NCBI RefSeq assembly: GCF_014851805.1
Contig: NZ_JACVAK010000004.1
Coordinates: forward strand, 186,001-250,000
Length of the DNA: 64,000 nucleotides
Direction of reading: 5' to 3'
Origin: Pseudoxanthomonas sp. PXM02
Lineage (GTDB): Bacteria > Pseudomonadota > Gammaproteobacteria > Xanthomonadales > Xanthomonadaceae
Within the stretch, counting starts at the first letter, position 1, and each line of letters starts with the position of its first letter. This document shows positions 12,307 to 26,277 of the stretch, piece after piece. The translations under genes and the position numbers were made by a program. The notes beneath the pieces are model-generated. The model was given only the letters and a program-made list of their open reading frames with translations, made no database searches and was not told the DNA's origin.

Positions 12307-12793
12307 CGCGGGTGTAGCGCGTCTCCACCGCACGCGTCTCTTCGCCCTGCGGGTTGATGTTGAACATGGTGATCACCAGCGTGTCCGGATCGGGCTGCTC
12401 CAGCGTCGTGCGCCAGCCCCAGCGCGGGCCACCCTGCCCGTCGCCGTAGCTGCCGAGCACATCGGGGAGCGAGCCGCCGCCGCCGGTCGAGAACATGATG
12501 CTGCTGCCAGTGCCGAAACTTTCCACCCAGGCGGATTCCCAGCGTCCTTCGTCCAGGTGGTAGCCGTACATCACGACACCTTCGATCGGTTCGTCGTTGT
12601 AGCAGCTTTCGTACTCGTGGATCAGGAAGCGACCGCCCAGCACGCTGCGGATGCGCCCGCGCTGCGGCGCTTCGCAGGCGAGTTCGTCCGGGATGAACCA
12701 CAGGCGGAAGCTGCCTTCCCAGTCGCCGGCCATCTGCGCCAGTTGCCGGTGCGGGCCGCTCGCAAGCGATGCTTCGAATGCTTCTTTTCCCAT
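12296..12793 (-). CDS. DUF1579 family protein
   Basis: A 165-residue protein with the DUF1579 pattern: GDWEGSFRLWF near the start, LGGRFLIHEYES, then GYHLDEGRWESAWVESFG. The fold is predicted to be a lipocalin-like beta barrel, and no function is established. The start at 12793 follows GGAGG at nine bases; an upstream in-frame ATG has no better signal. It converges on the FrnE-type gene with an 11-base 3' overlap. Confidence 0.85.
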   Translation of the reverse strand: MGKEAFEASLASGPHRQLAQMAGDWEGSFRLWFIPDELACEAPQRGRIRSVLGGRFLIHEYESCYNDEPIEGVVMYGYHLDEGRWESAWVESFGTGSSIMFSTGGGGSLPDVLGSYGDGQGGPRWGWRTTLEQPDPDTLVITMFNINPQGEETRAVETRYTRVSR

Positions 12794-12885
12794 GGTGCCC
12801 GCCTCCGTGAAGGGAGCGGGCATCATGCCACCCGGTCGAGGCGCCCGGCCGCGGTGGCATGTCCGCATTGCGCGAGGGTCAGGGA

Positions 12886-13098
12886 TCAGCCGTGGCGGGC
12901 CAGCAGGATGGCTTCGTTGCTCGGCATCTCGACGACCACGGCGGTGGGGATGCCATGGTGCTGGTGCAGGGTGGCGGCGAGCAGCTTGGCGCTCTCGCGC
13001 GCATCGCCGAGGTTGTCGAACCAGTTGCGGCCGTACTGGCCTTCGTAGAGTTGCCAGCCTTTGTCATTGGCGGCGATGGTGAACAGCAGGCGGGGCAT
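12886..13098 (-). CDS. Small uncharacterised protein (70 aa)
   Basis: The product is MPRLLFTIAANDKGW... ending EAILLARHG. The codon choice matches its neighbours (GC-rich third positions). A GGAG lies upstream of the ATG, and there is no overlap with other genes. The pattern of an N-terminal beta strand, a Trp, and an alanine-rich helix (ARESAKLLAATLHQHHG) recalls short stress-type domains with an F/W-strand-helix layout. I do not recognise a named family. No signal peptide or membrane segment is seen. Confidence 0.65.
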   Translation of the reverse strand: MPRLLFTIAANDKGWQLYEGQYGRNWFDNLGDARESAKLLAATLHQHHGIPTAVVVEMPSNEAILLARHG

Positions 13099-13238
13099 AA
13101 CGGACTCCAGTCAACACGCCGGGCAGGGAACCGGCGTGCGCACTGTGCGCGAATGTGTCAGTTATCACATTCGGCGGACGCCCCGAATGCGGGTAGGAAA
13201 AGTCCTACGCCGCTGTAGGCGCGATACCCGGGCTGCCG

Positions 13239-13925
13239 TCAGCGCAGCAGCGGCTCCAGCGCCTTCCACACGTGGTCGCGCAGCTTGGGCTGGGCACTGG
13301 CGACCGGGTGCAGGTTGTCGGCCTGGTAGGCGTTGCGGTCCAGCGCGATCGGTTCCAGCAGGAACGGCAGCAGCGCGGTGCTGTACTGCCTGGACAGCGC
13401 AGTGAAGTTCTGTTCGAAGCCGCGCGTGTATTCGGGACCGAAGTTGGGCGGCATGCGCATCCCGACCAGCAGCACCTTCGCCTTCGTGGCCTGCGCCGCC
13501 TTGATCATCTTTTCCAGGTTGGCGCGGCTCTGTGCGAGCGGCAGACCGCGCAGGCCGTCGTTGGCGCCCAGCGCAATGACGACGACGGCAGGCGTGTGGC
13601 GCTGCAGTTCCGCCGAGATGCGTGCCGCACCACCCGCGGTGGTTTCGCCGCTGATACTGGCATTGACCACGCGCCAGCCAGGCTTGGTCTTGCCGATGCG
13701 GTCTGCCGTGAGCGACACCCAGCCCTGCGTCGGCGCCAGCCCGTAAGCGGCGGACAACGAATCGCCCATCACCAGGATGGTGCGAGCGCCCTTCGCCGGT
13801 GCAGCCGATGCCGTCTGCGCTGCGACCGGACGTGCGAATAATGCGACGAGCAGCAGCAGCGACAAGCCCATGGCCCATTGCAGGCGTGCGCGAGGGACCC
13901 CATACCTGATCAAATTAAGAAACAT
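13239..13925 (-). CDS. tesA: Periplasmic arylesterase/thioesterase TesA (GDSL hydrolase)
   Basis: A 228-residue SGNH hydrolase. An N-terminal hydrophobic segment (about residues 17-36, ending PVAAQ) is a signal peptide or anchor. The catalytic Ser56 sits in GDSLS, the oxyanion Gly/Asn in GANDGLRG, and the Asp/His pair in DNLHP. TesA hydrolyses acyl-CoA, esters and lysophospholipids in the periplasm. The start codon is only 16 bases from the first ATG of the divergent ABC-transporter gene. If both first ATGs are used, the two promoters must lie inside the opposite coding regions; a start nearer MGLSLLLL would relieve this. Confidence 0.9.
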   Translation of the reverse strand: MFLNLIRYGVPRARLQWAMGLSLLLLVALFARPVAAQTASAAPAKGARTILVMGDSLSAAYGLAPTQGWVSLTADRIGKTKPGWRVVNASISGETTAGGAARISAELQRHTPAVVVIALGANDGLRGLPLAQSRANLEKMIKAAQATKAKVLLVGMRMPPNFGPEYTRGFEQNFTALSRQYSTALLPFLLEPIALDRNAYQADNLHPVASAQPKLRDHVWKALEPLLR

Positions 13926-13941
13926 TTAATCCACGCTCCCG

Positions 13942-14688
13942 ATGATTCACGAAATGACCGACGAGACGATCATGGCCGACGCCAGCAGACTCCACCCTGA
14001 AGCCGCCACCCGCCACGCCGTCCTGGATGTGCAGGGACTTGGCAAGCATGTACCGCTGCCCGAGGGCGCACTGACGATACTCGACGACATCGGGTTCCGC
14101 ATCGAACATGGCGATACGGTCGCGATCGTGGGTGCGTCGGGCTCGGGCAAGAGCACGCTGCTGTCGCTGCTGGCCGGCCTCGACGTCCCGAGTGCGGGCA
14201 CGGTGACGCTGGACGGCGAGCGCCTCTCCGACATGGACGAAGACGGCCGCGCCCGCGTGCGCGGCGACAAGGTCGGCTTCGTGTTCCAGAGCTTCCAGCT
14301 GCTGCCGTCGCTGACAGCGCTGGAGAACGTCATGCTGCCGCTGGAGCTGCGTGGCGACACCGATGTGGAAGGCCCGGCACGGCAGATCCTGGAGAAGGTC
14401 GGCCTCGGCCAGCGCCTCGGCCATTACCCGCGCCAGTTGTCGGGGGGTGAGCAGCAGCGCGTGGCGCTCGCACGTGCGTTCGTCACGCGGCCGTCGTTGC
14501 TGTTCGCGGACGAGCCCACCGGCAACCTCGACACGCACACCGGGCAGGCCATCGTCGAACTGCTGTTCGCGCTGAATGCCGATGCCGGTACCACGCTCGT
14601 GCTGGTGACGCATGACGACCATCTCGCGGCGCGCTGCCAGCGCCTGATCCGGTTGGATGCCGGTCGCCTGCAGGGCGCTGCCGCATGA
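13942..14688 (+). CDS. ybbA: ABC transporter ATP-binding protein, YbbA type
   Basis: A 248-residue ATPase of the LolD/MacB class. It has a Walker A GASGSGKST (residues 64-72), a Q-loop in FVFQSFQLLPSL, a signature LSGGEQQRVALARA, a Walker B LLFADEPTGNLD and an H-loop in LVTHDDH. It pairs with the FtsX-type permease that overlaps its stop codon (ATGA). The ybbAP genes next to tesA reproduce the E. coli order. The role is probably extraction of lipids or hydrophobic molecules rather than import. Internal ATGs at 13954 and 13972 are alternative starts and would widen the spacer to tesA. Confidence 0.92.
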   Translation: MIHEMTDETIMADASRLHPEAATRHAVLDVQGLGKHVPLPEGALTILDDIGFRIEHGDTVAIVGASGSGKSTLLSLLAGLDVPSAGTVTLDGERLSDMDEDGRARVRGDKVGFVFQSFQLLPSLTALENVMLPLELRGDTDVEGPARQILEKVGLGQRLGHYPRQLSGGEQQRVALARAFVTRPSLLFADEPTGNLDTHTGQAIVELLFALNADAGTTLVLVTHDDHLAARCQRLIRLDAGRLQGAAA

Positions 14689-17186
14689 GGACGCTGGCGC
14701 TGGCGTGGCGCCAACTGCGGCGTGATCTCGCTGCCGGTGACGTCCGCATCCTGTTCGCGGCGCTGGTGCTGGCGGTCGTCGCCGTCACCGCCGTCGGCTT
14801 CGTCACCGATCGCGCCGAACGTGCGCTGGCGATCGAAGCGAACCGGCTGCTGGGCGGCGATGTCGTCGTGCGCGGTGATGCGCCGCCAACCGATGCCCTG
14901 CGCGCACTCGCCGCAGCGCCCGGCCTCCGTGTGACCGAAACGCAGGAACTGCAGAGCATGATCCGCGCCGGCGAATCGCTGTCGCTGGGCGACCTGCGCG
15001 CGCTGGGCGAGGGCTTTCCACTGCGCGGCAGCTTCCGCGTGATCGATCGCGCTGGTGGCGCCGAACGCGATGCCGGCGGCATTCCTGCGCCGGGCACACT
15101 ATGGATCAGCCAGGCAGGCGCGGAGACGCTGGGCGCCAAGCTGGGCGACGAGATCGGCATCGGCACGCGCTCGTTGAAGCTCGCAGCGCTGGTGGCGCAA
15201 GAGCCCGATGCGGCGCTCGATTACTTCAATGTCGCACCCAAGGTCTTCCTCAATCTCGCCGACCTGCCGTCCACCGGCCTGGTGCAGGAAGGCAGTCGCC
15301 TGCGCTATCGCCTGGTCGTCGCGGGTGACGCCGCAGCGGTCGAAACCTTCACCGCGGCGGTGAAGCCGCAGCTCGTGCGCGGCCAGCGCATGGAGACGAT
15401 CCAGGACGCACGCCCGGAAGTGCGCTCCGCGCTGGATCGCGCCAGCCGCTTCCTCGGCCTAGCCGCATTGGTATCCGTCGTACTGGCCGCCGTCGCCGTC
15501 GCGATGGCGGCGCGCCGGCACAGCGAGCGCCATCTGTCGGGCACCGCGGTGATGCGCTGCCTCGGTGCGCAGCAGCGCACGCTGGTCGGCATCCATGTCG
15601 GCGAACTGGTGTTGTTGGGGTTGGCCGCCTGCACGGTCGGTGTGCTGATCGCGTTCGGACTGCAGTGGGGTATCGGCAGCTGGCTGCAGCAGTCGTTGAA
15701 GATCGATATTCCGCCGGCGGGCGTGATGCCGGCCTTGCAAGGCTATGGCGTCGGCATGATCGTGCTGCTTGCCTTCGGCGCACCGCCGGTGCTGGCGCTG
15801 CGCCGTGTTCCTGCGCTGCGCGTGCTGCGTCGTGATCTCGACCGTACCGAGCCGAGCGCCTGGCTGGTGGCACTGACCGGCTTCGTTGGCCTGGGTGCGC
15901 TGCTGTGGTGGAAGGCGGGTTCACCGACGCTCGGCACGGCGATGCTGGTCGGCATCATCGGGACGCTGGCCGTGCTCGCGCTGCTGGCATGGATGCTGAT
16001 CGTGCTGGTGCGCCGCCTGCGTTCGCGCCTGCGGGGCAGCCTGCGCTACGGGCTGGCCAATGTCAGCCGTCGCGCGGGGACGTCCATCGCGCAGGTGTCC
16101 GCACTCGGCCTCGGGCTGATGGCGTTGCTGTTGCTGACCTTCGTGCGCACCGACCTGCTGGATCGCTGGCAGCTGGCGCTCTCCGCCAACGCGCCGAACC
16201 GCTTCATCATCAACGTGCAGCCGGACCAGGTGGATCCGGTGAAGACATTCATGCAGGCGCGTGGGCTGTCGACGGTCGACCTGTACCCGATGATCCGCGG
16301 TCGCCTGGTCGAGCTCAACGGCAAGCCCACCAGCGGCGCCGACTACGAAGAGGCCGACGAGCGCACCCAGCGTCGCGCGGATCGCGAGTTCAACCTGTCG
16401 ATGGCCGCGACGCTGCGCGACGACAACAAGGTCACGGCAGGCGAATTCTGGACCGGACGCACGCCGTCCTCGCCCGAACTGTCGGTCGAAGAGGACTTCG
16501 CTGAAGGACTGGGCTGGAAACTGGGCGACCAGGTCGCGTTCGACATCGCCGGCCAGCGCTTCGAGGGCCGCATCACCAGCCTGCGCAGCGTGGACTGGGA
16601 AAGCTTCCGCCCCAACTTCTTCGTCGTCGCCTCGCCGGGCGCGCTGGACGGCTACTCGGCCAGCTACATCACTGCGGTCAGCGTGCCTGCCGGCGATAGC
16701 GCGTTTACGCGCGAACTGGTCAACCAGTTCCCGAACCTGTCGGTGATCGACGTCGAGGCGGTGCTGAACCAGGTGCGCAGCACGGCGGAGCAGGTCTCGC
16801 AGGTGGTGCAGGTGGTGTTCTGGTTCTCGCTGGCGGCGGGCCTGCTGGTGCTGATGGCCGCGGTGAGCGCGAGCCAGGACGAGCGGCTGCTGGAAGGCGG
16901 CGTGATGCGCGTACTGGGCGGCAGCCGTCGCCAGCTGCGTTTGGCGCAGGCGTCGGAGTTCGCGGCCATCGGACTGCTGGCAGGACTGGTGGCGGCCATC
17001 GCAGCGTCCGTGCTTTCAGGCGTGGTGGCCACGCAGGTGTTCGACCTGCCATGGAAGGCGAACTGGCAGCTGGCCGCCATCGGTGGCGGCCTCGGCATGC
17101 TGGCCGCGCTGGGTGCCGGCCTGTTCGCGACACGCAAGGTGCTGGACGCACCGCCATCGGTAACGCTGCGCGAACTGCAGGGATGA
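14685..17186 (+). CDS. ybbP: ABC transporter permease, YbbP type (FtsX/MacB fold)
   Basis: An 833-residue inner-membrane permease. An N-terminal membrane helix (about residues 20-40) leads to a large periplasmic domain. Two FtsX-type four-helix membrane domains follow, around 250-400 and 700-825. Typical permease segments are MRCLGAQQRTLVGIHVGELV in the first and MRVLGGSRRQLRLAQASEF in the second. The duplicated layout and the length match YbbP of E. coli. It is translationally coupled to the ATPase gene by a four-base overlap. Confidence 0.92.
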   Translation: MRTLALAWRQLRRDLAAGDVRILFAALVLAVVAVTAVGFVTDRAERALAIEANRLLGGDVVVRGDAPPTDALRALAAAPGLRVTETQELQSMIRAGESLSLGDLRALGEGFPLRGSFRVIDRAGGAERDAGGIPAPGTLWISQAGAETLGAKLGDEIGIGTRSLKLAALVAQEPDAALDYFNVAPKVFLNLADLPSTGLVQEGSRLRYRLVVAGDAAAVETFTAAVKPQLVRGQRMETIQDARPEVRSALDRASRFLGLAALVSVVLAAVAVAMAARRHSERHLSGTAVMRCLGAQQRTLVGIHVGELVLLGLAACTVGVLIAFGLQWGIGSWLQQSLKIDIPPAGVMPALQGYGVGMIVLLAFGAPPVLALRRVPALRVLRRDLDRTEPSAWLVALTGFVGLGALLWWKAGSPTLGTAMLVGIIGTLAVLALLAWMLIVLVRRLRSRLRGSLRYGLANVSRRAGTSIAQVSALGLGLMALLLLTFVRTDLLDRWQLALSANAPNRFIINVQPDQVDPVKTFMQARGLSTVDLYPMIRGRLVELNGKPTSGADYEEADERTQRRADREFNLSMAATLRDDNKVTAGEFWTGRTPSSPELSVEEDFAEGLGWKLGDQVAFDIAGQRFEGRITSLRSVDWESFRPNFFVVASPGALDGYSASYITAVSVPAGDSAFTRELVNQFPNLSVIDVEAVLNQVRSTAEQVSQVVQVVFWFSLAAGLLVLMAAVSASQDERLLEGGVMRVLGGSRRQLRLAQASEFAAIGLLAGLVAAIAASVLSGVVATQVFDLPWKANWQLAAIGGGLGMLAALGAGLFATRKVLDAPPSVTLRELQG

Positions 17187-17196
17187 TGAAGTCAGG

Positions 17197-17490
17197 CTAG
17201 TGACGACGACCGTCGTCGTCGCTGGCGAAGTCCTCGGCCCGCACCGGCATCGCATCGAAGCGGCGTTCGTAAGCCCGTTCTTCGATCACGCGCTCGATCT
17301 CGTCCTCGGGCAGATCGGGCGCACCGTACACCGCGTAGGCGATGCTGCCGTCCGCACGTTCACCGACCTGATGCAGGCGATAGCGTGCGTGGCCGCCGCC
17401 GCTGTTCTCGGGATAGTGGACCGGCGGGCGTCCGCCTTCCAGGTCCATCTCGCTGTTATCCACCACGCCACCTACGAACAACGCTCTCAT
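17197..17490 (-). CDS. Small uncharacterised protein (97 aa)
   Basis: The product starts MRALFVGGVVDNSE, contains RPPVHYPENSGGGHARYRLH and a central beta-rich YAVYGAPDLPEDE, and ends in an acidic tail SDDDGRRH. GGAGAG precedes the chosen ATG, and the frame upstream lacks support. Codon use is like that of the neighbours. I recognise no named family. The gene converges with ybbP at an 11-base gap and is separated from rtcB by the rtcB terminator, so it is probably transcribed separately or by read-through. Confidence 0.7.
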   Translation of the reverse strand: MRALFVGGVVDNSEMDLEGGRPPVHYPENSGGGHARYRLHQVGERADGSIAYAVYGAPDLPEDEIERVIEERAYERRFDAMPVRAEDFASDDDGRRH

Positions 17491-17593
17491 CTTCCACTCT
17501 CCGGCAGGACGATGATCGCGAGTCTGGCAGCCGCGATGTTCGCGCAGGGTCAAGCAAACATTGCGCGAGTGCGAACGAAGCGTTTGGCAAAGC

Positions 17594-17629
17594 TGAATAA
17601 AAGAAGGGGCGAGCCGAAGCTCACCCCTT
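17594..17629 (-). terminator. Intrinsic terminator of rtcB with UUCG loop, overlapping the stop codon
   Basis: On the minus strand an 11-bp stem (plus positions 17604-17614 with 17619-17629, one G-T pair) closes a TTCG tetraloop and is followed by CTTTTATT. The rtcB stop codon at 17621-17623 lies inside the stem. Confidence 0.85.
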
Positions 17630-18844
17630 GATGCACACTACCTGGCGCAGTGTGTGGACCACCTCCACCAGGTCGGACTGCGCGGCCATGACGGCATCGA
17701 TGTCCTTGTAGGCGGCCGGCGATTCGTCGATCACACCGGCGTCCTTGCGGCACTCGACGTGCGCCGTGGCCTCGCGGTGCTGCGACAGCGTGATCTGCTG
17801 GCGCGCGGCGGTACGGCTCAGCACGCGACCGGCGCCGTGGCTGCAGCTGTGGAAGCTGTCCGCGTTGCCCTTGCCGCGCACGATGAAGCTCTTCGCGCCC
17901 ATGCTGCCGGGAATGATCCCCAGCTCGCCGGCACGCGCGCTCACCGCGCCCTTGCGGGTGACCAGCAGATCCACGCCGCCATGCGTCTCCTTCTGCACGT
18001 AGTTGTGGTGGCAGTTGACCGCCATCTTCTCCAACTGGAACTTCGGCAGGCGTTGGCGCATCTCGGCCAGCACGCGCGACATCATCGCTTCACGGTTCTC
18101 GCGGGCGTAGTCCTGTGCCCACGACACCGCTTCCACGTAGTCGTCGAACAGGGGCTCGCCTTCCATGAAGAAGGCCAGGTCCTTGTCCGGCAGGTGGAAG
18201 CCGAGCACGCGGTGCGCCAACTGCTCGCGCGCGCGTTCGATGAAGTACGTGCCGATCAGGTTGCCGGTGCCGCGCGAACCGCTGTGCAGCATCACCCACA
18301 CCGCGTCGGCCTCGTCCAGGCAGATCTCGATGAAGTGGTTGCCGCCGCCCAGCGTGCCGATCTGGCGGTCCAGCTTGTCGGTGCGGATCTTGCGGTGCTT
18401 CTGCTTGATCGCCTCCAGGCGCGGCTCCAGCCCCGACTGCGCGATGCGGGTGGCGATGCTGTCGGGTAGCTTCCAGTGCTCGCCACCGCGGCCGTTGCCG
18501 ACCGGCACGCTGCGTTCGATGCTCGAGCGCAACTGCGCCAGGTTGTCGGGCAGGTCCTTCGCGCGCAGCGTGGTGCGTACTGCGGCCATGCCGCAGCCGA
18601 TGTCCACGCCGACGGCGGCCGGGATGATGGCGCCGCGGGTCGGGATGACCGAGCCCACGGTGGCGCCCTTGCCCAGGTGCACGTCGGGCATCACCGCGAC
18701 CCACGGGCCGACGAAGGGGATCGCCGCGATGTTCCGCAGCTGCTCGTGGGCGCCCTGGTCCAGCGGCACGCCGCGCACCCAGCCCTTGATCGGCGTGGTG
18801 CTGTGCTCGGCATGCAGCAGTTCGAATTGGGATTGCATGTTCAT
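17621..18844 (-). CDS. rtcB: RtcB-family RNA-splicing ligase
   Basis: A 407-residue RNA ligase joining 2',3'-cyclic phosphate (or 3'-phosphate) ends to 5'-OH ends in a GTP- and Mn2+-dependent reaction. Manganese-binding residues are visible in VGVDIGCGMAAVRT, GGGNHFIEI and HSGSRGTG. A further conserved segment is AVNCHHNYVQKE. The guanylylated histidine is His336 in SCSHGAGRVLSR. It lies downstream of a slipin gene and two tRNA-like elements on the same strand, which suggests an RNA-repair unit. RtcA, archease and the CARF-type regulator RtcR are not visible in the window. The terminator is built into its 3' end. Confidence 0.95.
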   Translation of the reverse strand: MNMQSQFELLHAEHSTTPIKGWVRGVPLDQGAHEQLRNIAAIPFVGPWVAVMPDVHLGKGATVGSVIPTRGAIIPAAVGVDIGCGMAAVRTTLRAKDLPDNLAQLRSSIERSVPVGNGRGGEHWKLPDSIATRIAQSGLEPRLEAIKQKHRKIRTDKLDRQIGTLGGGNHFIEICLDEADAVWVMLHSGSRGTGNLIGTYFIERAREQLAHRVLGFHLPDKDLAFFMEGEPLFDDYVEAVSWAQDYARENREAMMSRVLAEMRQRLPKFQLEKMAVNCHHNYVQKETHGGVDLLVTRKGAVSARAGELGIIPGSMGAKSFIVRGKGNADSFHSCSHGAGRVLSRTAARQQITLSQHREATAHVECRKDAGVIDESPAAYKDIDAVMAAQSDLVEVVHTLRQVVCIKG

Positions 18845-18869
18845 GTCGTCATTCCATTGAATGGATAAA

Positions 18870-18909
18870 GCCCCCTCCCCCGTTCACGGGGGAGGGTTGA
18901 GGTGGGGGC
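18870..18909. repeat. REP-like palindromic element, copy 1 (inverted to copy 2)
   Basis: A 40-base unit containing a 10-bp hairpin, CCCTCCCCCG (18873-18882) with CGGGGGAGGG (18887-18896), followed by a conserved GGTGGGGGC tail. The reverse complement of copy 2 matches it along the full length with a few substitutions. It lies between slipin and rtcB. Confidence 0.75.
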
Positions 18910-18948
18910 GTACACATGCGCGGTCGATCCGTCTCCCGTGCTCCGTTT

Positions 18949-18988
18949 GCCCCCATCCCAGCCTTCCCCCGCATGCGGGGGAAGGGGC
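18949..18988. repeat. REP-like palindromic element, copy 2 (inverted to copy 1)
   Basis: Contains a 24-base palindrome at 18962-18985 (CCTTCCCCCG, CATG, CGGGGGAAGG) preceded by GCCCCCATCCCAG. Together with copy 1 it makes a head-to-head pair resembling a BIME. It sits nine bases downstream of the slipin stop, so transcripts would end or be processed in a very stable structure before rtcB. Confidence 0.75.
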
Positions 18989-18997
18989 AGCGCACTA

Positions 18998-20116
18998 CTA
19001 CTTCAACGTCACCAGCTGCTTCAGCACGCCATCCAGGCCGCCGAACACGGTGAGCTTGTCGATCTTCTCGGTGACCTTTTCCAGCGCCTCGAGCTCCTTC
19101 AGGCGCATCAGCACCGGCGATTCGTCGATCAGCTTGGCGGTGTTGAGCAGGGAACGCGTGGCGTTCGCCTCCTCGCGACGACGGATCACGTTGGCCTGCG
19201 CCTGCTTCTCCGCCTGCACCACCGCGTTGAGAATCTCCTTCATCTCGCCCGGCAGGATCACGTCCTTCACGCCGACGCCCAGCACGTCCACGCCGAGGCC
19301 GGTCAACTGGCCGCGCACGTAGGCGAAGATGTCGGCGTCCAGCGAGGCCTTGTCGCCCAGCAGTTCGTCCAGCGTCTTGGCGGAGACCGCCTTGCGCAGG
19401 CCGTACTGCAGTTCGCGGTAGACGAAGTCGCCGACCTTGGCCACCTTGGTGCGCGATGCCACCACGTCAGTGACGCGGGTGCTCGCGGCCAGGTTCACGC
19501 GCAGGCTGACCTTGTCACGGGTCAACAGCTCCTGGCCCGAGACCTCGATCGTCTGCATGCGCAGGTCGACCACCTCCACCACCACGTTCTTCCGGAAGTT
19601 CCAGAAGGCGTAGCTACCTGCCGCGAGCGTGCGCTCGAGCTTGCCGTCGATGAACACCAGGCCGGCAAACTCCGCCGGCACATCGGCCACCACGGCCAGC
19701 TTCGACAGCGAGCCCAGCTGGCGCAGACGACGCGCGACGGCGGCGTCCACTTCCAGCGAGGCCAGCGTCACCGTCTGCACCTCGACCTTCACCAGGCCGA
19801 TCCAGTACAGGCGCCGCGTGCCGGGCGGCAGCACGTCTTCCAGCTTGCCGTTCTTCAGCACCAGGCCCACCTGGTCCACCCCGATGTCGGCGCAGACGAA
19901 GGTCTCGCCCAGGCGCTCGCCCAGGCCGACGATCAGCGCGTCGACGTCGTGGCCGCTGTACTCCGGCGCGGCGATGTTGAAGAAGCGCACCTCGGTGCGA
20001 CCCATCGGGTCGAACCAGCGGTACACACCCGGCGCGAGCACACGCTCGAACCGACGGTTGCGATACACCAGGCCGCGCTCGCCGTCACCGATCACGACCC
20101 TCTTGGTCCAGAACAT
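18998..20116 (-). CDS. Slipin / SPFH-domain protein with repeated N-terminal modules
   Basis: A 372-residue band-7/SPFH protein. The SPFH core spans about residues 185-300 (VVVEVVDLRMQTIEVSGQEL, then VGDFVYRELQYGLRKAV). A helical C-terminal part with EILNAVVQAEKQAQANVIRR follows, typical of slipin oligomerisation. The N terminus has no obvious membrane helix. Instead a short module is repeated three times: GLVYRNRRFERVLAPGVYRW, GLVLKNGKLEDVLPPGTRR and GLVFIDGKLERTLAAGSYAF. The start at 20116 has an AGGAG site. SPFH proteins scaffold membrane microdomains. Slipin genes are known neighbours of rtcB, but the link is not understood mechanistically. Confidence 0.9.
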   Translation of the reverse strand: MFWTKRVVIGDGERGLVYRNRRFERVLAPGVYRWFDPMGRTEVRFFNIAAPEYSGHDVDALIVGLGERLGETFVCADIGVDQVGLVLKNGKLEDVLPPGTRRLYWIGLVKVEVQTVTLASLEVDAAVARRLRQLGSLSKLAVVADVPAEFAGLVFIDGKLERTLAAGSYAFWNFRKNVVVEVVDLRMQTIEVSGQELLTRDKVSLRVNLAASTRVTDVVASRTKVAKVGDFVYRELQYGLRKAVSAKTLDELLGDKASLDADIFAYVRGQLTGLGVDVLGVGVKDVILPGEMKEILNAVVQAEKQAQANVIRRREEANATRSLLNTAKLIDESPVLMRLKELEALEKVTEKIDKLTVFGGLDGVLKQLVTLK

Positions 20117-20489
20117 GGCGTTGTTCTCCTTGTTGGCTCTGGTGGTTCGATCCGGGTTGTCTGCATCGTCGCGACGGATCGAACTCCGCGACGGTGGAGT
20201 GCCGGCTGCAACCTGCAGCCGACGGAAGAAGGCGGAAACGCCCCTGGACGGAGACGGTGCGGACAGCCGGCGCTGTCGGCGGAGGCGTCGTGGCGACAAT
20301 CCGATCCGGAGATCGCATCGAGCGCCACGCGCATCCGCGTCGAGGGCGCGGTGCCGGCACCGTCCCCGCTGCGACGTGTCGTCTTCCTGCAGTCCTTCGC
20401 GGAAAGACGTCGCGCCACACGGGGCGTTTCCTGGGTGGGACATGCGTCCCGGTGTCATGACGTGAAAGGTCATGTGCCCTTGCAGGCGT
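20117..20489 (-). other. 373-base leader between the tRNA-like elements and the slipin gene
   Basis: No convincing gene on either strand. The slipin frame stays open upstream but its codon usage and composition become atypical. The stretch holds the slipin ribosome-binding site at its end (AGGAG). It would be the leader of a transcript that runs through the tRNA-like elements, or it may contain a separate slipin promoter that I could not identify. Confidence 0.5.
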
Positions 20490-20557
20490 TGGAGCGGGAG
20501 TCGAACCCGCGACCGTCGGATTTACTGTCCGATGCTCTACCCATCTGAGCTATCCAG
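20490..20557 (-). ncRNA. tRNA-like element B (degenerate, GUA in the anticodon position)
   Basis: On the minus strand the sequence has T8-A9, a D-arm (GCTC/GAGC), a five-bp anticodon stem (TCGGA/TCCGA) with a seven-base loop CAGTAAA, a five-base variable region and a perfect T-arm (GCGGG, TTCGACT, CCCGC). It departs from real tRNAs in four ways. Base 33 is A instead of U. The acceptor stem is only TGGA/TCCA. No CCA follows. A Tyr anticodon sits on a class I body, whereas bacterial tRNA-Tyr is class II. It starts immediately after the CCA of element A, so both probably come from one transcript. Confidence 0.7.
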
Positions 20558-20627
20558 TGGTGGACGAACCGGATTCGAACCGGTGGCCAACGGCTTGCGC
20601 CGCTGCTCTGCCGCTGAGCTTTCGTCC
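20558..20627 (-). ncRNA. tRNA-like element A with encoded CCA and no anticodon
   Basis: A 70-base minus-strand element folding as a tRNA half-mimic. The seven-base acceptor GGACGAA pairs with TTCGTCC. The D-arm is GCTC/GAGC with GG in its loop, and the T-arm is ACCGG, TTCGAAT, CCGGT with the canonical T-loop. A discriminator A and CCA are encoded. The anticodon arm is replaced by a 5-6 bp stem (GCGGC/GCCGT) closed by the tetraloop GCAA, so it cannot decode. It lies upstream of slipin and rtcB on the same strand. A tRNA mimic for RNA processing, or a decoy or substrate for repair, is an inference. Confidence 0.75.
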
Positions 20628-20678
20628 GCTCGAGGAACACCTTCTCCCACGCTTCGGCATACGCCACGGCAGCGCCGC

Positions 20679-20782
20679 GCGCACCGGACGGGATCCAAAC
20701 CCGTACCGCTGTAGCGTGTTCGATCGATGCTCCTCATTGCCGGCTGTCGCCAACCGGCAATTCGTTCGGGCGCGATGCGCCC
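20679..20782 (-). ncRNA. Further structured element upstream, possibly a third tRNA-like fold
   Basis: On the minus strand four helices can be drawn. A T-arm-like hairpin ACGGG, TTTGGAT, CCCGT occupies 20688-20704. A perfect 8-bp hairpin ATTGCCGG/CCGGCAAT spans 20736-20761. An 8-bp long-range stem (20773-20780 with 20679-20686, one G-T pair) encloses both. The last competes with a local 6-bp hairpin GGGCGC/GCGCCC (20768-20782). The T-loop-like sequence TTTGGAT deviates from consensus. The assignment as RNA rests on structure and location only. Confidence 0.4.
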
Positions 20783-20967
20783 TTGTGGTGTCCATTCCCC
20801 GCGCCGCTCGCGTCGAAGCATCACAACGCAGCGCACATGCGCCGGTCGCAGCCGCGCCCCTGCCTCGGGACGCGTGGACGCGCTACCCGGATGCTCCAGG
20901 GCGGAAAGAAACTTCCGTGGTGGAATGGAAAAAACCTGGTCGATGCATGCGCATCCTCCGCGAACGC

Positions 20968-21008
20968 TGAAAACAAAACGCCCCCGGGACTTGCGACCCG
21001 AGGGCGTT
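20968..21008 (-). terminator. Intrinsic terminator of the 41-codon gene
   Basis: AACGCCC and CGGG (20977-20983, 20985-20988) pair with CCCG and GGGCGTT (20997-21000, 21002-21008), with one internal mismatch. On the minus strand the stem is followed by TTGTTTTC. It separates the small gene at 21060-21185 from the tRNA-like/slipin/rtcB region. Confidence 0.8.
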
Positions 21009-21018
21009 CGCGTTCCTC

Positions 21019-21043
21019 GGGAGATCGGGGTGGCCGATCTCCC
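21019..21043. other. 10-bp perfect hairpin in the 3' untranslated region of the small gene
   Basis: GGGAGATCGG (21019-21028) pairs with CCGATCTCCC (21034-21043) around GGTGG. It sits 16 bases after the stop of the small minus-strand gene and before its terminator. It could protect the mRNA 3' end or be part of a structured RNA. Confidence 0.6.
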
Positions 21044-21059
21044 AGGGAGTCAGCCGATG

Positions 21060-21185
21060 TCAGGTATCCAGATGCCGTGCGGATTCGTTGCCGTGCTTGG
21101 CATCGAAGGCATACGCACGCACGCGCAGGCCGCAGCGCGATGGCTGCAGGTCGAGCGTGTTGGCGGTGTCGTACGCGGGCTTCAT
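21060..21185 (-). CDS. Small protein of 41 aa with its own promoter and terminator
   Basis: The product starts MKPAYDTANTLDLQPSRCGL and ends ESARHLDT. It is polar, with one cysteine, no membrane segment and no signal peptide. The codons follow the strong GC3 bias of the genome, which supports real coding. A sigma-70-type promoter (21233-21261) and an intrinsic terminator (20968-21008) bracket it closely, so the transcription unit is about 250 bases. No clear Shine-Dalgarno sequence precedes the ATG, which weakens the case for translation; the transcript could instead act as a small RNA. I do not recognise the family. Confidence 0.55.
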   Translation of the reverse strand: MKPAYDTANTLDLQPSRCGLRVRAYAFDAKHGNESARHLDT

Positions 21186-21232
21186 GGAAATCAGTCTGGT
21201 GAAAAAACAGCCGCAGGGGCCGAAGGCCGCGC

Positions 21233-21261
21233 ACGATACGCCGGTTGTTTTGTTCGCGCAA
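21233..21261 (-). promoter_or_regulatory. Sigma-70-type promoter of the small gene
   Basis: On the minus strand TTGCGC (21256-21261), 17 bases, TATCGT (21233-21238), within an AT-rich patch that is unusual for this genome. Expected transcription starts about 40 bases before the ATG at 21185. Confidence 0.6.
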
Positions 21262-21363
21262 CACTTTTTTAATTTTGTTTTGCGCAGCCGATGAGCGGTG
21301 TCGGAAACGGTCGCCAGTGGCCAGCCGCTAGAATGGCGTCCTCCTTCCCCTCGCGTGCCGCCC

Positions 21364-22416
21364 GTGGCCTCTCGATTCTCCGATCCCGCGCTCGACGCAT
21401 TGATGCTGCCCTTCGCACAGGGTCCGCTCACCTGGCCTTCCGGACCGGTGCTGTTCCTGCGTGCGCGCGACGGTGCTGCGTTGCGCCAGTTCCCGCTGGC
21501 GCAACTGGTCTGCGAGCAGAGTTTCCGTCCGGATGCCGAACTGCTGGAGCGCGCGGGGTTGCGCGTCGTTGCCGATGCCGCCTCGGACGGTGCGCGCTAT
21601 CCGCTGGTGCTGGTACTGCCGCCGCGACAGCGCGAAGAGGCGCGTGCATTGTTGGCGCGTGCGCTGCAACTGGCCCAACCTGGCGGCATCGTCGTCGCTT
21701 CGATGACCAACAACGAGGGGGCGAAGTCTGGAGAGGCGGACCTGAAGCAACTCACCGGCATCGCGGGCACGCTGACCAAGTTCCATTGCCGTACGTTCTG
21801 GACTCGCGCGCTCGGCGAAGGAACGGATGAGGCACTGCTACGGCAGTGGGCCGCGCTCGACGCGCCACGCCGCATCGAGAACGGTCGCTTCCTCAGCCGT
21901 CCTGGCGTGTTCGCCTGGAATCGCATCGATCCTGCCTCCGCGCTGCTCGTCGAATGCCTGCCGAACGACATCAGCGGCCATGGTGCGGATCTCGGCGCGG
22001 GATGGGGCTTCCTGTCACTCGCGTTGCTGGAACGCTGCCCGGGTATTACGGGACTGGATCTCTACGAGGCAGAAGCGCGAGCACTCGCTCTGGCCAAAGA
22101 GAACCTGGGCGCGGTGACGTCATCCGCACGCATCGATTTCCGCTGGCACGACGTGACCGGTGGTTTGCCGGAACGTTACGACTTCATCGTCAGCAATCCG
22201 CCGTTCCACACGCAGAGTCGAGCGGATCGACCCGACATCGGCCAGCGATTCATCACCGTAGCTGCTTCGGCGCTGAAGCCGGGTGGACGGTTGTGGCTGG
22301 TGGCCAACCGTCACCTGCCGTACGAGCAGACCTTGAACGACAGCTTCGGTGAGGTACGGGTGGCCGGCGAGCGCGATGGTTTCAAGGTGATCGCGGCCAC
22401 GAAGGCGAGGCGCTGA
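21364..22416 (+). CDS. rsmC: 16S rRNA (guanine-N2) methyltransferase, RsmC family
   Basis: A 350-residue class I SAM-dependent methyltransferase. The C-terminal catalytic domain has the SAM motif GADLGAGWGFLSLAL and the N2-guanine methyltransferase signature VSNPPFH. The N-terminal half is the degenerate duplicate domain typical of RsmC (G1207 methylation in E. coli). The start is uncertain. GTG at 21364 (VASRFSDPAL) is preferred because a TAGAAT -10-like box at 21329-21334 would fall inside the gene if the ATG at 21298 were used. It heads an operon with rsuA and a HAD phosphatase. Confidence 0.88.
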   Translation: MASRFSDPALDALMLPFAQGPLTWPSGPVLFLRARDGAALRQFPLAQLVCEQSFRPDAELLERAGLRVVADAASDGARYPLVLVLPPRQREEARALLARALQLAQPGGIVVASMTNNEGAKSGEADLKQLTGIAGTLTKFHCRTFWTRALGEGTDEALLRQWAALDAPRRIENGRFLSRPGVFAWNRIDPASALLVECLPNDISGHGADLGAGWGFLSLALLERCPGITGLDLYEAEARALALAKENLGAVTSSARIDFRWHDVTGGLPERYDFIVSNPPFHTQSRADRPDIGQRFITVAASALKPGGRLWLVANRHLPYEQTLNDSFGEVRVAGERDGFKVIAATKARR

Positions 22417-22420
22417 GCGC

Positions 22421-23128
22421 ATGAAGATCGTCAAGCACATCGCCAACCTCGGCTACGGCAGCCGCAAGCAGGTGCAGTGGATGTTCCGCGAGGGTCGCAT
22501 CACGGATGCAGGCGGCGAGGTGTTGTATGCCGACGACCCGGTCGACCACGACGCCATCCGCGTGGATGGCGAGCCGCTGGATCCTGCGCCCGGCCTGACC
22601 ATACTGCTGCACAAGCCGGTGGGTTACACCTGTTCGACCAAGGACACGGGGCGCATCGTCTACGACCTGTTTCCGTCGCGCTTCCGCGATCGCTCGCCGG
22701 TGCTGTCGACGGTGGGGCGGCTGGATCGCGAAACCAGCGGTCTGCTGCTGCTCACCGACGACGGCGGGTTGCTGCACCGGATCATTTCGCCGAAGGCCAA
22801 CCTGCCGAAGGTGTACGACGCAACGCTGGCGCAGGATCTGCGCGGCGACGAGGGTGCGATCTTCGCCAGTGGCACGCTGATGCTGGAGTCGGAGCAGACG
22901 CCGCTGGCGCCCGCGGGACTCGAGGTGATCGATCCGCGCCATGGGCACCTGACGCTGACCGAAGGGCGCTACCACCAGGTGCGCCGCATGTTCGCCGCCG
23001 TCGGCAACCACGTTGAAGCGCTGCATCGCAGCCGCGTCGGCGGACTGACATTGGACGGTCTGGCGCCGGGCGAATGGCGTATCCTCGACGACAGCGACCT
23101 GCAGCGTTTGTTCGGGGGCGCCGCATGA
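22421..23128 (+). CDS. rsuA: Ribosomal small subunit pseudouridine synthase RsuA family
   Basis: A 235-residue pseudouridine synthase. It has an N-terminal S4 domain (MKIVKHIANLGYGSRKQVQW, then REGRITDAG) and the catalytic motif VGRLDRETSGLLLLT with its essential Asp. The later KVYDATL and RYHQVRRMFAA segments are typical of the RsuA/RluE branch. E. coli RsuA makes pseudouridine 516 in 16S rRNA. The gene starts four bases after rsmC, and its stop overlaps the next start (ATGA), so two rRNA-modifying enzymes are co-expressed. Confidence 0.92.
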   Translation: MKIVKHIANLGYGSRKQVQWMFREGRITDAGGEVLYADDPVDHDAIRVDGEPLDPAPGLTILLHKPVGYTCSTKDTGRIVYDLFPSRFRDRSPVLSTVGRLDRETSGLLLLTDDGGLLHRIISPKANLPKVYDATLAQDLRGDEGAIFASGTLMLESEQTPLAPAGLEVIDPRHGHLTLTEGRYHQVRRMFAAVGNHVEALHRSRVGGLTLDGLAPGEWRILDDSDLQRLFGGAA

Positions 23129-23817
23129 CGACGTCGTTGTCGCTGCCGTTCACGCCGACGGCGGTGATCTTCGACATGGACGGGCTGATGCTCGACAGCG
23201 AGCGCGCGATCATCGGTTGCCTCGCGGAGGCTGCGCGCGAGCTCGGACACGATCTGCCGGACGTGCTGTGGCTGGCGATGGTCGGTCACAGCGAAGCCGT
23301 GTGCCGGCACCTGCTGGATGAAGCGGTCGGAGAGACGCAGCGCAACCTCATCCTGCAGCGGTCGCACGTGCTGTACGACGCGGTGGTCGCTGCTGGTGTT
23401 CCGCACCGTCCGGGCATCCTGGCGATGCTGGACTTCCTGCAGGCGCGCGGCATTCCCCGTGCCGTCGCCACGTCGACGCGCCGGCCGTTGGCGCTGAAGA
23501 AGCTGGAGGCTTCTGGCCTGTTGCCGCGCTTCGATGCCATCTGCACCAGCAGCGATGTCGAGCACCCCAAGCCCGCGCCCGATGTCTACCTGCTGGCCGC
23601 GCGCTCGTTGGGCGTCGATCCGGTGCAATGTCTGGTCCTCGAAGACTCACCGACCGGCGTGCGCGCCGCACTGGCCGCAGGCATGTACCCGATCCAGATC
23701 CCCGATCTGCTCGAGCCCGACGACACCGTGCGTGCGCTCGGCCATCTGATCCTGCCATCGCTCGACGAGGCGCGCGTGTTGCTGGAGCGGCGGCTGACGA
23801 CACATCCGGATGTCTGA
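23125..23817 (+). CDS. HAD-superfamily phosphatase (phosphoglucomutase-like)
   Basis: A 230-residue haloacid-dehalogenase hydrolase. Motif I is IFDMDGLMLDSE (nucleophile and acid/base Asp), motif II is AVATSTRR, motif III is the Lys in VEHPKPAPDVYLLA, and motif IV is LVLEDSPTGVRAA. An alpha-helical cap lies between motifs I and II, as in subclass I. Relatives dephosphorylate or isomerise small sugar phosphates; the substrate cannot be stated. It is translationally coupled to rsuA. Confidence 0.9.
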   Translation: MTTSLSLPFTPTAVIFDMDGLMLDSERAIIGCLAEAARELGHDLPDVLWLAMVGHSEAVCRHLLDEAVGETQRNLILQRSHVLYDAVVAAGVPHRPGILAMLDFLQARGIPRAVATSTRRPLALKKLEASGLLPRFDAICTSSDVEHPKPAPDVYLLAARSLGVDPVQCLVLEDSPTGVRAALAAGMYPIQIPDLLEPDDTVRALGHLILPSLDEARVLLERRLTTHPDV

Positions 23818-23818
23818 T

Positions 23819-23840
23819 GTGGGAGCGACGTAAGTCGCGA
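23819..23840 (+). repeat. REP element upstream of the RAYT gene
   Basis: A 22-base sequence starting GTGGGAGCGACG with an internal hairpin GCGAC-GTAA-GTCGC. It is an exact inverted match of 24423-24444. It begins inside the tail of the HAD gene region, immediately after its stop codon. Confidence 0.85.
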
Positions 23841-23937
23841 AGCGTTCCCGTGAAAAGCCGATACCCCGGCAAGCGGTTCTCCGATGGCGCTCTATGCTGT
23901 GCTTGCCATGCTTACCTTCGTCCACAGGAGGTAAGCG

Positions 23938-24390
23938 ATGTCGGGCTATTCGGAACTGAGAAAAGGCCGCTCCTCCCAGGCCGGTCAGGTCTACATGGTG
24001 ACCTTCACGACCGCGAATCGCCGTCCGCTCTTCCTTCAGCCGGAACGCGCCATGGATGCCTGCCGCGCGATGACCTCATCACGGTTGTGGTATCGCTCCA
24101 GGCTGCTGTGCTGGGTGCTGATGCCGGACCACTGGCATGGCGTGATCGAGCTCGGTTCGCTGGATAGCTTGTCGACAACGGTGCAGCGATTGAAATCCAA
24201 CAGCGGCCGATTCATTCGCCTGAATCACCCCGAATCCGGCATCGTGTGGGAGAAGGGATTCCACGATCATGCATTGCGCAGCGGGCCGTCGATTGTCGCG
24301 GCGGGACGCTACATCGTGGCCAATCCCTTGCGCGCCGGATTGGCGCGAAGCGTGGCGGAGTATGCGTGGTGGGATGCGGTCTGGCTCTGA
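23938..24390 (+). CDS. REP-associated tyrosine transposase (RAYT, Y1 HUH family)
   Basis: A 150-residue single-strand nuclease of the IS200/IS605-like Y1 group. The HUH metal motif is present in MPDHWHGVIEL. The conserved N terminus has GQVYMVTFTTANRRPLF. The C-terminal Tyr lies in AAGRYIVANPLRAGL, the signature of RAYTs. A strong AGGAGG site precedes the ATG. The gene stands between two exact inverted REP copies. RAYTs are usually single-copy domesticated genes that mobilise or maintain REPs rather than autonomous transposons. Confidence 0.93.
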   Translation: MSGYSELRKGRSSQAGQVYMVTFTTANRRPLFLQPERAMDACRAMTSSRLWYRSRLLCWVLMPDHWHGVIELGSLDSLSTTVQRLKSNSGRFIRLNHPESGIVWEKGFHDHALRSGPSIVAAGRYIVANPLRAGLARSVAEYAWWDAVWL

Positions 24391-24422
24391 TCGCCACTAT
24401 GCGTTTTGGCGAAGGAAAAGCA

Positions 24423-24444
24423 TCGCGACTTACGTCGCTCCCAC
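24423..24444 (-). repeat. REP element downstream of the RAYT gene
   Basis: The reverse complement is identical over 22 bases to 23819-23840. It lies 33 bases after the RAYT stop. The rest of the gap to the DUF1415 gene (to 24512) shows no gene. Confidence 0.85.
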
Positions 24445-24512
24445 ACCCGACACCGCTGCACCGAACATTTCCGCACCCAACATCCCCGCGCCCCATATCA
24501 CGAGCGATCCCG

Positions 24513-25085
24513 TTACTCCGCAAACAGCTTCTGCCACCCCGCATGCCCCAGCGCATCCAGCGTCTTCACGTTGCGCTCGACGATCACGTCGGGATCAGGG
24601 AAGGCTTCCACCGCGCGGTCAATGCTGGCTTCGCGCAGCAGGTGCAGGGTGGGGTAGGGCGAGCGGTTGGTGTAGTTGCTGATGTCGTCCGGCATGGTGC
24701 CGGCGAACTGGTAGTCCGGGTGGAAGCTGGCCACCTGGATCTCGCCCTGCAGGTCCAGCGCCTCGACCGCAGCGTCCGCGTTTTCGAGGAAGTCGTTGTA
24801 GTCCAGGAAGTCCGTCAACACATCCGGGTGCACGATCAGCGTGGTGTCGACCTGATCGGGATCGGTGTCGCGCAACAGCACCAGTTCTTCGGCCAGCTCC
24901 TCCAGCAGCGCTTCGGGCGTGCTGGCATCACTCAGTACGAAGCGGACCTGCTGCTTCACGTACACCGCCTTGGCGAACGGGCACAGGTTGAGCCCGATCA
25001 CGGCGCGCTCCACCCAGCGGCGGGTCGCGTCGATCGGGTCGCTGCCCTCGACGGTGTCGGGCGTATCAGTCACGGAAGTTGTCAA
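24513..25085 (-). CDS. DUF1415 family protein
   Basis: A 190-residue soluble protein with the DUF1415 hallmark near its start, IGLNLCPFAKAV, including the conserved Cys-Pro. Later come LIVHPDVLTDFLDYNDFL and ASFHPDYQFAG, and SPYPTLHLLREASID follows. No biochemical function is established for the family. It is likely co-transcribed with yajQ, whose 3' end it overlaps by 20 bases if the first ATG is used. Confidence 0.87.
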   Translation of the reverse strand: MTTSVTDTPDTVEGSDPIDATRRWVERAVIGLNLCPFAKAVYVKQQVRFVLSDASTPEALLEELAEELVLLRDTDPDQVDTTLIVHPDVLTDFLDYNDFLENADAAVEALDLQGEIQVASFHPDYQFAGTMPDDISNYTNRSPYPTLHLLREASIDRAVEAFPDPDVIVERNVKTLDALGHAGWQKLFAE

Positions 25086-25548
25086 ACTGCAGCGGCAGCT
25101 CGAATTCGGTCTTCTTCAGCAGCGCAATGACGTCCTGCAGGTCGTCACGCTTCTTGCCGGTGACACGCAGCTTGTCGCCGTTGATCTGCGCTTCGACCTT
25201 CAGCTTGGCGTCCTTGATGGTCGAGACGATCTTCTTGGCCAGCTTCTGCTCGATGCCCTGCTGGACGGTGATCTTCTGGCGTGCACCGGCCAGGTTGGTT
25301 TCCACGTCGCCGAACTCCAGGCAGCGCGCATCGATCTGGCGCGCGATCAGGCGCGCACGCAGGATGTCGGTCATCTGCTTGAGCTGGAAGTCGCTGGGCG
25401 CGGACTGGGTGATCAGCTTCTCTTCCAGCACGAACTTGGCGTCCACGCCCTTGAAGTCGAATCGGGTGGACAGTTCGCGGTTGGCCTGGTCCACGGCATT
25501 GGTCAGCTCGTGGACGTTGACTTCGGAGACGACGTCGAAAGAGGGCAT
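25066..25548 (-). CDS. yajQ: YajQ-family cyclic-di-GMP-binding protein
   Basis: A 160-residue protein matching the YajQ family in full. The N terminus is MPSFDVVSEVNVHELTNAVD, then STRFDFKG, KQMTDILRARLIARQID and a C-terminal KRDDLQDVIALLKK. A Xanthomonas member of this family binds cyclic di-GMP and modulates a LysR-type virulence regulator; older work describes nucleotide or phage-RNA binding. A TAGAAT -10-like box on the minus strand (25576-25581) overlaps the stop codon of the upstream gene and may drive yajQ. Confidence 0.93.
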   Translation of the reverse strand: MPSFDVVSEVNVHELTNAVDQANRELSTRFDFKGVDAKFVLEEKLITQSAPSDFQLKQMTDILRARLIARQIDARCLEFGDVETNLAGARQKITVQQGIEQKLAKKIVSTIKDAKLKVEAQINGDKLRVTGKKRDDLQDVIALLKKTEFELPLQFDNFRD

Positions 25549-25578
25549 GGGGGAAATCCTGTAGCGGGGCGCGGAATT

Positions 25579-26277
25579 CTACCGTGTGTCGGCAAGCGCG
25601 GCCCCGTCCGTGGACGGTGGCCGGGACAGGGAGCGCGCCATGCCTGCCACGCGACGGACGGTCTCGCAGGCGAGCAGGGGGACGATCCAGCTGCACCACA
25701 GCAGCGTGGCGATCAGCGTGGGGGAAGGCGCCAATCCGCTGGCGATCGCGACCGGCAACGAGAGGCGGAAGATGATCGGGGCCAGCGTCACCGCGTAGTT
25801 GCGCGTCATCCAGCGCCGGTGCCTGTCCACGTCGCGCCGGCGGATCGCGATCAGTCCTGTCAAGGCGGTGGTGAGCCAGGCCAGAGCCGTTGCAGCGAAT
25901 GCCAGGCGGATGGCGAACGGCGCCGGTGAGGTGGCGATCAGTCCAGTGGCGCCGATGGCCGCCACCAGCAGGCCGACCAGATAGACGCGGCCCGCCAGAC
26001 GATGCAGTCGTGGACTGCGCAGGCGCAACTGCGTCAGGAACTGCACCGGCCCGAGCAGCACGGTGGTGAGGCCGCCGGCGAGATGCAGCCACAGCCAGCT
26101 GCGTCGCGTCATGAACATGCCGTAGGCAGCCGAATCGAGGTGCCGGTACTTGCCGTAGGCGGCGAGCAGGAACTCGAGGCTGACGAACCCGAGCAGCAAC
26201 CACAGGGCGGCCCAGGTCAGGCGCAACGGCAGGCGCGAACGCGGGGATCGACGGGTGCGTGCGGCGTTCCCTGTCAT
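25579..26277 (-). CDS. DUF2306-type integral membrane protein
   Basis: A 232-residue protein with about six hydrophobic segments from residue 17 onward. Conserved polar spots are LHLAGGLTTVLLGPVQFL, LHRLAGRVYLVGLL and RRWMTRNYAVTLAPIIFRL, matching the DUF2306 pattern of membrane histidines and arginines. Some relatives resemble cytochrome b561-type or ferric-reductase-like folds; the function here is unknown. The start at 26277 follows AAAGGCAGG; the frame extends upstream without support. Confidence 0.75.
   Translation of the reverse strand: MTGNAARTRRSPRSRLPLRLTWAALWLLLGFVSLEFLLAAYGKYRHLDSAAYGMFMTRRSWLWLHLAGGLTTVLLGPVQFLTQLRLRSPRLHRLAGRVYLVGLLVAAIGATGLIATSPAPFAIRLAFAATALAWLTTALTGLIAIRRRDVDRHRRWMTRNYAVTLAPIIFRLSLPVAIASGLAPSPTLIATLLWCSWIVPLLACETVRRVAGMARSLSRPPSTDGAALADTR

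Follow-up and report, generated by a model that had tools for sequence, protein, structure and literature searches.

The DNA analysed here, referred to as the window, is a stretch of 64,000 nucleotides (nt) from the 4.34 Mb genome of Pseudoxanthomonas sp. PXM02, and all coordinates are positions within it. On its minus strand two tRNA-like elements, embedded in a structured RNA, are followed by a slipin gene, two repetitive extragenic palindromic (REP)-like hairpins, the RNA ligase gene rtcB and a terminator-like hairpin, an order which a sequence-only reading of this DNA had put forward and which is confirmed here. As judged from the comparison of related loci, the two tRNA-like elements are domains of one folded RNA that spans about 530 nt or more (20762-20234) and whose strict partner is slipin and not rtcB. 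This RNA probably acts in trans as the partner of slipin in RtcB-based tRNA repair.

The structured RNA

From its 5' end, the RNA is composed of the following parts:

20763..20925, minus strand: possible 5' domain, upstream of the core (in alignment A1; RNAalifold helices)
20633..20762, minus strand: conserved core of 130 nt, without the tRNA part (model R1; helices with compensatory changes)
20560..20628, minus strand: tRNA-like element 1 (ARAGORN; Rfam tRNA model, 45.8 bits; compensatory changes)
20486..20559, minus strand: tRNA-like element 2 (ARAGORN; Rfam tRNA model, 48.8 bits; compensatory changes)
20456..20474, minus strand: hairpin 3, a copy of an anticodon arm with the loop CUUUCAC (read from the sequence; comparison with the tRNA loops of the same genome)
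20437..20450, minus strand: hairpin 4, of the type GGGAC GCAU GUCCC (helix 6 of the controlled pair count)
20234..20431, minus strand: 3' domain, closed by an 11-base-pair (bp) long-range helix, GGAAACGCCCC / GGGGCGUUUCC (helices 7 and 8)

Among 120 relatives rtcB is present in 65, and 60 rtcB loci were taken for comparison. Alignment A1 comprises 34 loci, the window and the relatives L031-L063, in which slipin lies directly before rtcB and enough upstream sequence is available; L064, which has no slipin, and L065, which is cut short, were left out. The tandem elements are found upstream of slipin in all 34 aligned loci, conservation in relatives having been set beforehand as a check, and as they recur in this way their presence is more than chance. 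RNAalifold predicts 132 pairs for this alignment, 61 of them with change on both sides. The tRNA-like elements retain 98.9% standard pairs, with both-sided changes in 56 cells as compared to 10.8 ± 3.3 in shuffles, and the core and 3' domain together retain 96.7%, with both-sided changes in 183 cells as compared to 46.8 ± 5.4, counts that are biased towards the structure in that it came from the same alignment; when the structures are shifted by one to three columns, standard pairs drop to 30-49%. The tRNA mimics of the sequence-only reading thus hold up as tRNA-like folds, with compensatory changes that speak against ordinary decayed tRNAs, but not as free-standing elements. Likewise, what had been described as a 373-base leader, the about 369 nt between element 2 and the ATG of slipin, turns out to be mostly the 3' part of the same RNA.

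The whole RNA would measure roughly 0.5-0.7 kb and is presumably made as one transcript just ahead of slipin. For the possible 5' domain RNAalifold proposes helices (columns 56-62 with 103-118, 128-151 and 156-179); this part is poorly aligned in L058 and lies outside the controlled pair count. Besides tRNA, no Rfam family reached its gathering score in the window stretch 12000-26000 or for the RNA in 17 related loci, in which the sole other match was an RNase P gene on the opposite strand of L265, more than 2 kb upstream of slipin.

The two elements abut on the minus strand and were named by both ARAGORN and the Rfam tRNA model (gathering score 29), as the tandem described from the sequence had suggested. 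Among the 46 tRNA matches genome-wide they are the two lowest-scoring, the next lowest reaching 50.8 bits. Neither has the full set of features of a functional tRNA, namely a 7-bp acceptor and a 7-nt anticodon loop with U33. Element 1 possesses a D arm, a T arm, an acceptor stem and an encoded CCA-like end, the latter present in 27/34 loci by a simple end test, with a tetraloop in place of the 7-nt anticodon loop. Element 2, which starts directly after element 1, has an acceptor of only 4 bp (UGGA with UCCA) and, in the window, A at position 33; its D and T arms are near-invariant, while the three 'anticodon' letters vary from locus to locus. The loop of hairpin 3 in the window, CUUUCAC, is that of the organism's own tRNA-Glu(UUC). 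Over the 34 loci, the hairpin 3 loops are of the Glu type in 13, the Asp type in ten and the Tyr type in six, with CUGUUAC in two, CUGUAAC in one and loops unlike these in the remaining two; a match to a Glu, Asp or Tyr tRNA loop of the own genome is found in 29/34 loci, for which a simple chance test is weak, the distinct loops being few and close to one another.

Association with slipin and spread among bacteria

The two protein genes of the locus are the following:

18998..20116, minus strand: slipin gene, encoding an SPFH/Band_7 protein of 372 amino acids (Pfam Band_7, E=1.1e-29)
17621..18844, minus strand: rtcB, encoding an RNA ligase of 407 amino acids (Pfam RtcB, E=1e-125)

R1, a covariance model that covers the 130-nt core and no tRNA part, matches 38/120 relatives, 74/398 genomes of the order and 3/369 genomes of the class, two of the latter being accounted for by the own genome and a genome of the same family. 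Outside the first 34 loci, 20 R1 hits were inspected, and slipin, 47-80% identical to that of the window, is located downstream in all 20. At least two T-arm motifs are present in 19 of these loci and one motif in the remaining one. In contrast to slipin, rtcB follows slipin in 15 of them, lies ahead of the RNA in two (L172 and L173) and is not found nearby in three. With rtcB so variable in position, it is slipin and not rtcB that constitutes the strict partner of the RNA; every inspected locus that has the RNA, including those with rtcB elsewhere, carries it upstream of slipin. In genome G056 (locus L064), a 79% identical rtcB is present, yet there is neither a slipin gene beside it nor an R1 match in the genome.

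A scan of named genomes with a slipin alignment provided 80 listed loci out of at least 561, 77 of which were usable, three having too little upstream sequence. Each of these 77 loci has a T-arm motif in the 720 nt ahead of slipin, 73 of them at least two, and R1 matches 58 of the 80 listed at E below 1e-6. In even samples, slipin at E<=1e-60 was found in 21/369 genomes of the class and 23/398 of the phylum, which gave 39 usable loci after one of 40 was dropped. Within 700 nt upstream of slipin, 37/39 of these loci (31/33 outside the order) carry a T-arm motif, a test that shows the T arm and not the whole RNA, as compared to 1/39 on the opposite strand and 1/39 within slipin as controls. To judge from these motif counts, the tie between RNA and slipin reaches well beyond the order.

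Some loci carry additional genes. Nine tRNA calls precede the slipin unit in L229:32-1543, and in L281:499-3876 Lys, Gly and Val tRNAs lie upstream and nine more tRNAs downstream of slipin, with an rtcB fragment at the edge; both arrays are reminiscent of Anabaena, in which a tRNA operon is under the same repressor as rtcB and a slipin gene. On a Thiodiazotropha contig (L252:648-1967), a reverse transcriptase gene (Pfam RVT_1) lies on the opposite strand upstream of the tRNA-like RNA, and in L260:576-2198 and L264:459-1781 the slipin unit is preceded by PcfJ-like genes that stand among tRNA calls. In other families of the order, tRNA genes (His, Asp and Lys by ARAGORN) are located directly upstream of a more distant rtcB (L075:4458-4614, L077:4550-4626, and about 4745-4897 in L085 and L086, with rtcB on the plus strand).

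The predicted structure of slipin (AlphaFold; mean predicted local distance difference test score 83.4, predicted template modelling score 0.59) has an SPFH fold, with stomatin as the top Foldseek match (1.7e-14). Extra beta-modules are predicted at residues 4-47 and 73-117. A third module at 141-184 continues into the SPFH domain, and a long helix is predicted at the C terminus. The SPFH fold is known for rings and cages (PMC12624060).

Relation to RNA-repair genes

In the window and in 33/33 relatives (L031-L063) rtcB stands beside slipin. In three betaproteobacterial loci, L265 and L268 (Acidovorax) and L267 (Formivibrio citricus), rtcR lies divergent to the RNA, and in L265 and L267, the two of these three that were tested, rtcA is located downstream of rtcB. 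Upstream of the RNA in these rtcR-bearing loci there are sigma-54-like sites, to which weight is given only in loci that also have RtcR. With tRNA-like folds that are kept and related units that adjoin rtcR and rtcA, the earlier characterization as an RNA-repair-like locus is borne out, and the locus probably belongs to a Band-7 (slipin) branch of RtcB RNA-repair systems. The sequence-only reading had also stated that Rsr, RtcA and RtcR are not visible; this holds for the whole genome of Pseudoxanthomonas sp. PXM02, in which RtcR (PF06956), RtcA (PF01137) and TROVE/Rsr gave no match. TROVE/Rsr matches six of the 120 relatives at E<=0.001, three of them over the cut-off.

Possible functions of the RNA

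The explanation that we favour, and consider probable, is that the structured RNA acts in trans with slipin. Slipin would form a ring or cage to which the RNA binds; the docked RNA would present its tRNA shapes and gather damaged tRNAs or enzymes that cut or seal tRNAs, and breaks in tRNAs would be resealed by RtcB; the locus would thereby be linked to tRNA damage in this organism. Slipin and the RNA may thus be the counterpart of Rsr (Ro60) and the tRNA-mimic YrlA RNA in rsr-yrlBA-rtcBA operons. Directly supported are the existence of the RNA and the way it folds, its association with slipin and the proximity of rtcB, as well as, in relatives, that of rtcR and rtcA. The functions as substrates, scaffolds or sensors of repair that the sequence-only reading had considered for the tRNA mimics are conjectural. 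Several observations weigh against a trans-acting partner. No T-arm motif is present within 700 nt of slipin in two of the 39 even-sample loci, L284 and L290, the latter with tRNA-like genes further upstream. No rtcB is near the RNA in three of the 20 inspected loci; the RNA therefore does not need rtcB beside it. As the genome has no match to the regulator RtcR or to RtcA, regulation by damaged tRNA is hypothetical here, and a scan for sigma-54-like sites gave 13/154 forward versus 8/154 reverse hits, at 2.3% per shuffled stretch, with 11 of the forward hits at -478 to -596 and some from close relatives. Finally, because the RNA always directly precedes slipin, a role in cis retains some probability. 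In such a cis-acting leader, the tRNA-like domains would be part of the slipin mRNA and sense nucleases that cut tRNAs or enzymes of tRNA processing (RNase P, RNase Z/E), the sensing would set the expression of slipin, plus that of rtcB where co-transcribed, and the RNA would have no partner role of its own. Besides the position of the RNA in all inspected loci, the resemblance of element 1 with its encoded CCA-like end to a processing substrate agrees with a leader. On the other hand, the large covarying core and the 3' domain exceed the needs of a tRNA-type sensor, rtcB in L172 and L173 would escape the control, and the terminator scan of the window detected no terminator-like site between the RNA and slipin; a leader is regarded as rather unlikely.

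Alternatively, the RNA might mainly be a decoy that soaks up anticodon nucleases, with exchangeable anticodon arms (the element 2 loop and hairpin 3) that match local toxins. Such a role, which appears doubtful to us, would agree with the lack of a normal anticodon loop in element 1, the correspondence of most hairpin 3 loops to own tRNA loops and the divergence of the element 2 loop, which among 16 close loci amounts to 37% as compared to 2.6% for its T arm and, at fourfold sites, 14% for slipin and 21% for rtcB. The loop exceeds the fourfold sites in 104 of 120 non-independent pairs, and in eight disjoint pairs 22/56 differ (p=2.4e-6 against 0.139 and 0.0014 against 0.21, the values of the fourfold sites). 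The nearby leader and the P4 loop of the core, however, diverge by 30% and 28% in the same loci, little below the element 2 loop (disjoint pairs, p=0.08 for the leader and a borderline p=0.046 for the P4 loop). The comparison with fourfold sites hints at positive selection on the loop, that with the nearby leader does not, and such selection is not claimed; in sequence comparison the loop appears free or mildly diversifying, and the data fall short of an arms race. Of the 24 different 7-nt loops of element 2, only five are identical to the loop of a real tRNA of the own genome (2.4 expected, p=0.05), and an anticodon identity of element 2 is not claimed either. U33 is kept in only 14/30 element 2 loops (four loci in which the loop has another length are not counted), the loop variation is explained by relaxed constraint as well, and the nuclease is hypothetical. 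That the elements are ordinary or decaying tRNA genes present at this site by chance, for which their rank as the lowest-scoring tRNA matches of the genome might be quoted, is practically ruled out by their same place in all 34 loci and their compensatory changes; in addition, they abut one another, the tetraloop of element 1 and the short acceptor of element 2 are unlike tRNA genes, and real tRNAs for the same amino acids are encoded elsewhere in the genome. An elaboration of the trans-acting partner, which we hold to be unlikely, is that an uncuttable tRNA body (element 1) and exchangeable anticodon arms (the element 2 loop and hairpin 3) might be displayed on a vault-like slipin cage, catching or sensing lineage-specific anticodon nucleases and handing their targets to RtcB; Rsr/YrlA and slipin/tRNA mimic would then be two answers to one need, with the eukaryotic vaults and their vault RNA as a distant cousin.

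Other features of the locus

Two further features on the minus strand complete the locus:

18873..18985, minus strand: two REP-like hairpins (18985-18962 and 18896-18873), inverted, between slipin and rtcB (read from the sequence)
17604..17629, minus strand: terminator-like stem with a T tail, after rtcB (terminator scan)

The REP-like pair is probably incidental, as the gap between slipin and rtcB is below 100 nt in 15/33 related loci, and since this gap varies from 57 to 976 nt among relatives the hairpins look inserted. Four terminator-like sites were found in the stretch as compared to 2.5 ± 1.7 in shuffles, by which the scan alone is weak. Between the RNA and a divergent methyltransferase gene, a short reading frame (ATG 21183, stop 21061-21059) is followed by a strong terminator-like hairpin (21009-20976), the two together occupying 21183-20976.

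Comparison with known systems

In the abstract of their 2016 work in Nucleic Acids Research (44:8525), Burroughs and Aravind reportedly describe SPFH/Band-7 modules with a novel tRNA-like molecule. According to PMC13404743, which refers to that work, a Band-7 protein with a cognate tRNA-like RNA beside RtcB was proposed there. As in this proposal, a Band-7 gene, a tRNA-like RNA and rtcB lie side by side in the window; unlike in the proposal as known to us, two tRNA-like units and an anticodon-arm hairpin are embedded within a larger RNA with its own core and 3' domain, and the genome has no RtcA or RtcR match. The combination of slipin, RtcB and tRNA mimic, which the sequence-only reading had regarded as a variant arrangement, is therefore real but not a lone oddity. 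A literature search, which did not extend to the full text of the 2016 proposal, found no description of the larger RNA.

In the Salmonella rsr-yrlBA-rtcBA operon, RtcB is associated with Rsr and a tRNA-mimic RNA (Hughes et al., 2020, PMC7790460), and as far as this account goes the window is alike in having RtcB together with a tRNA mimic and a protein that is a candidate for holding RNA, but differs in that the genome gives no match to TROVE/Rsr, RtcA or RtcR. A YrlA homologue was rejected: the YrlA model reaches 29.8 bits on the window against a gathering score of 69 and spans the junction of the two elements, a weak match that is expected because any tandem tRNA pair sets a T arm before a D arm. 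In Pseudomonas aeruginosa, the gene for the SPFH protein PaFlo8 is located within an rtcA, rtcB and rtcR locus and thus similarly combines an SPFH gene with rtcB, with an RNA unmentioned in the account of PaFlo8 available to us (PMC13086221). In Anabaena, rtcB, a slipin gene and an operon of 26 tRNAs are all under a single repressor, TrcR, but these genes are scattered, and the portion of the report at hand does not mention a tRNA-mimic RNA (PMC10272220).

With the vault, composed of major vault protein (MVP) and vault RNA, the predicted slipin shares beta-modules, an SPFH domain and a long C-terminal helix. Vault cage chains are retrieved by Foldseek with E values of 1.5e-9 to 2.1e-7, but with TM-scores of only 0.35-0.41 by query length and in alignments longer than the query, ranking below stomatin; stomatin and HflK/C match better. 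No MVP repeat or shoulder was recognized by sequence, Pfam and PDB sequence searches of slipin giving only SPFH members.

While a system of this kind, which has received little study, had already been proposed, the present analysis adds the RNA in its larger form together with its fold and the model of its core, as well as the tie to slipin rather than rtcB and the reach of this tie. A defined, covarying and alignable RNA and a working core covariance model thereby become available for a repair system in which the RNA partner had been no more than a prediction, and the plain question can now be posed whether an SPFH ring binds a tRNA-mimic RNA and aids the repair of cut tRNAs by RtcB. If true, this would be a bacterial parallel to Ro60 and Y RNA and perhaps to vaults, both of which have long been without a settled function.

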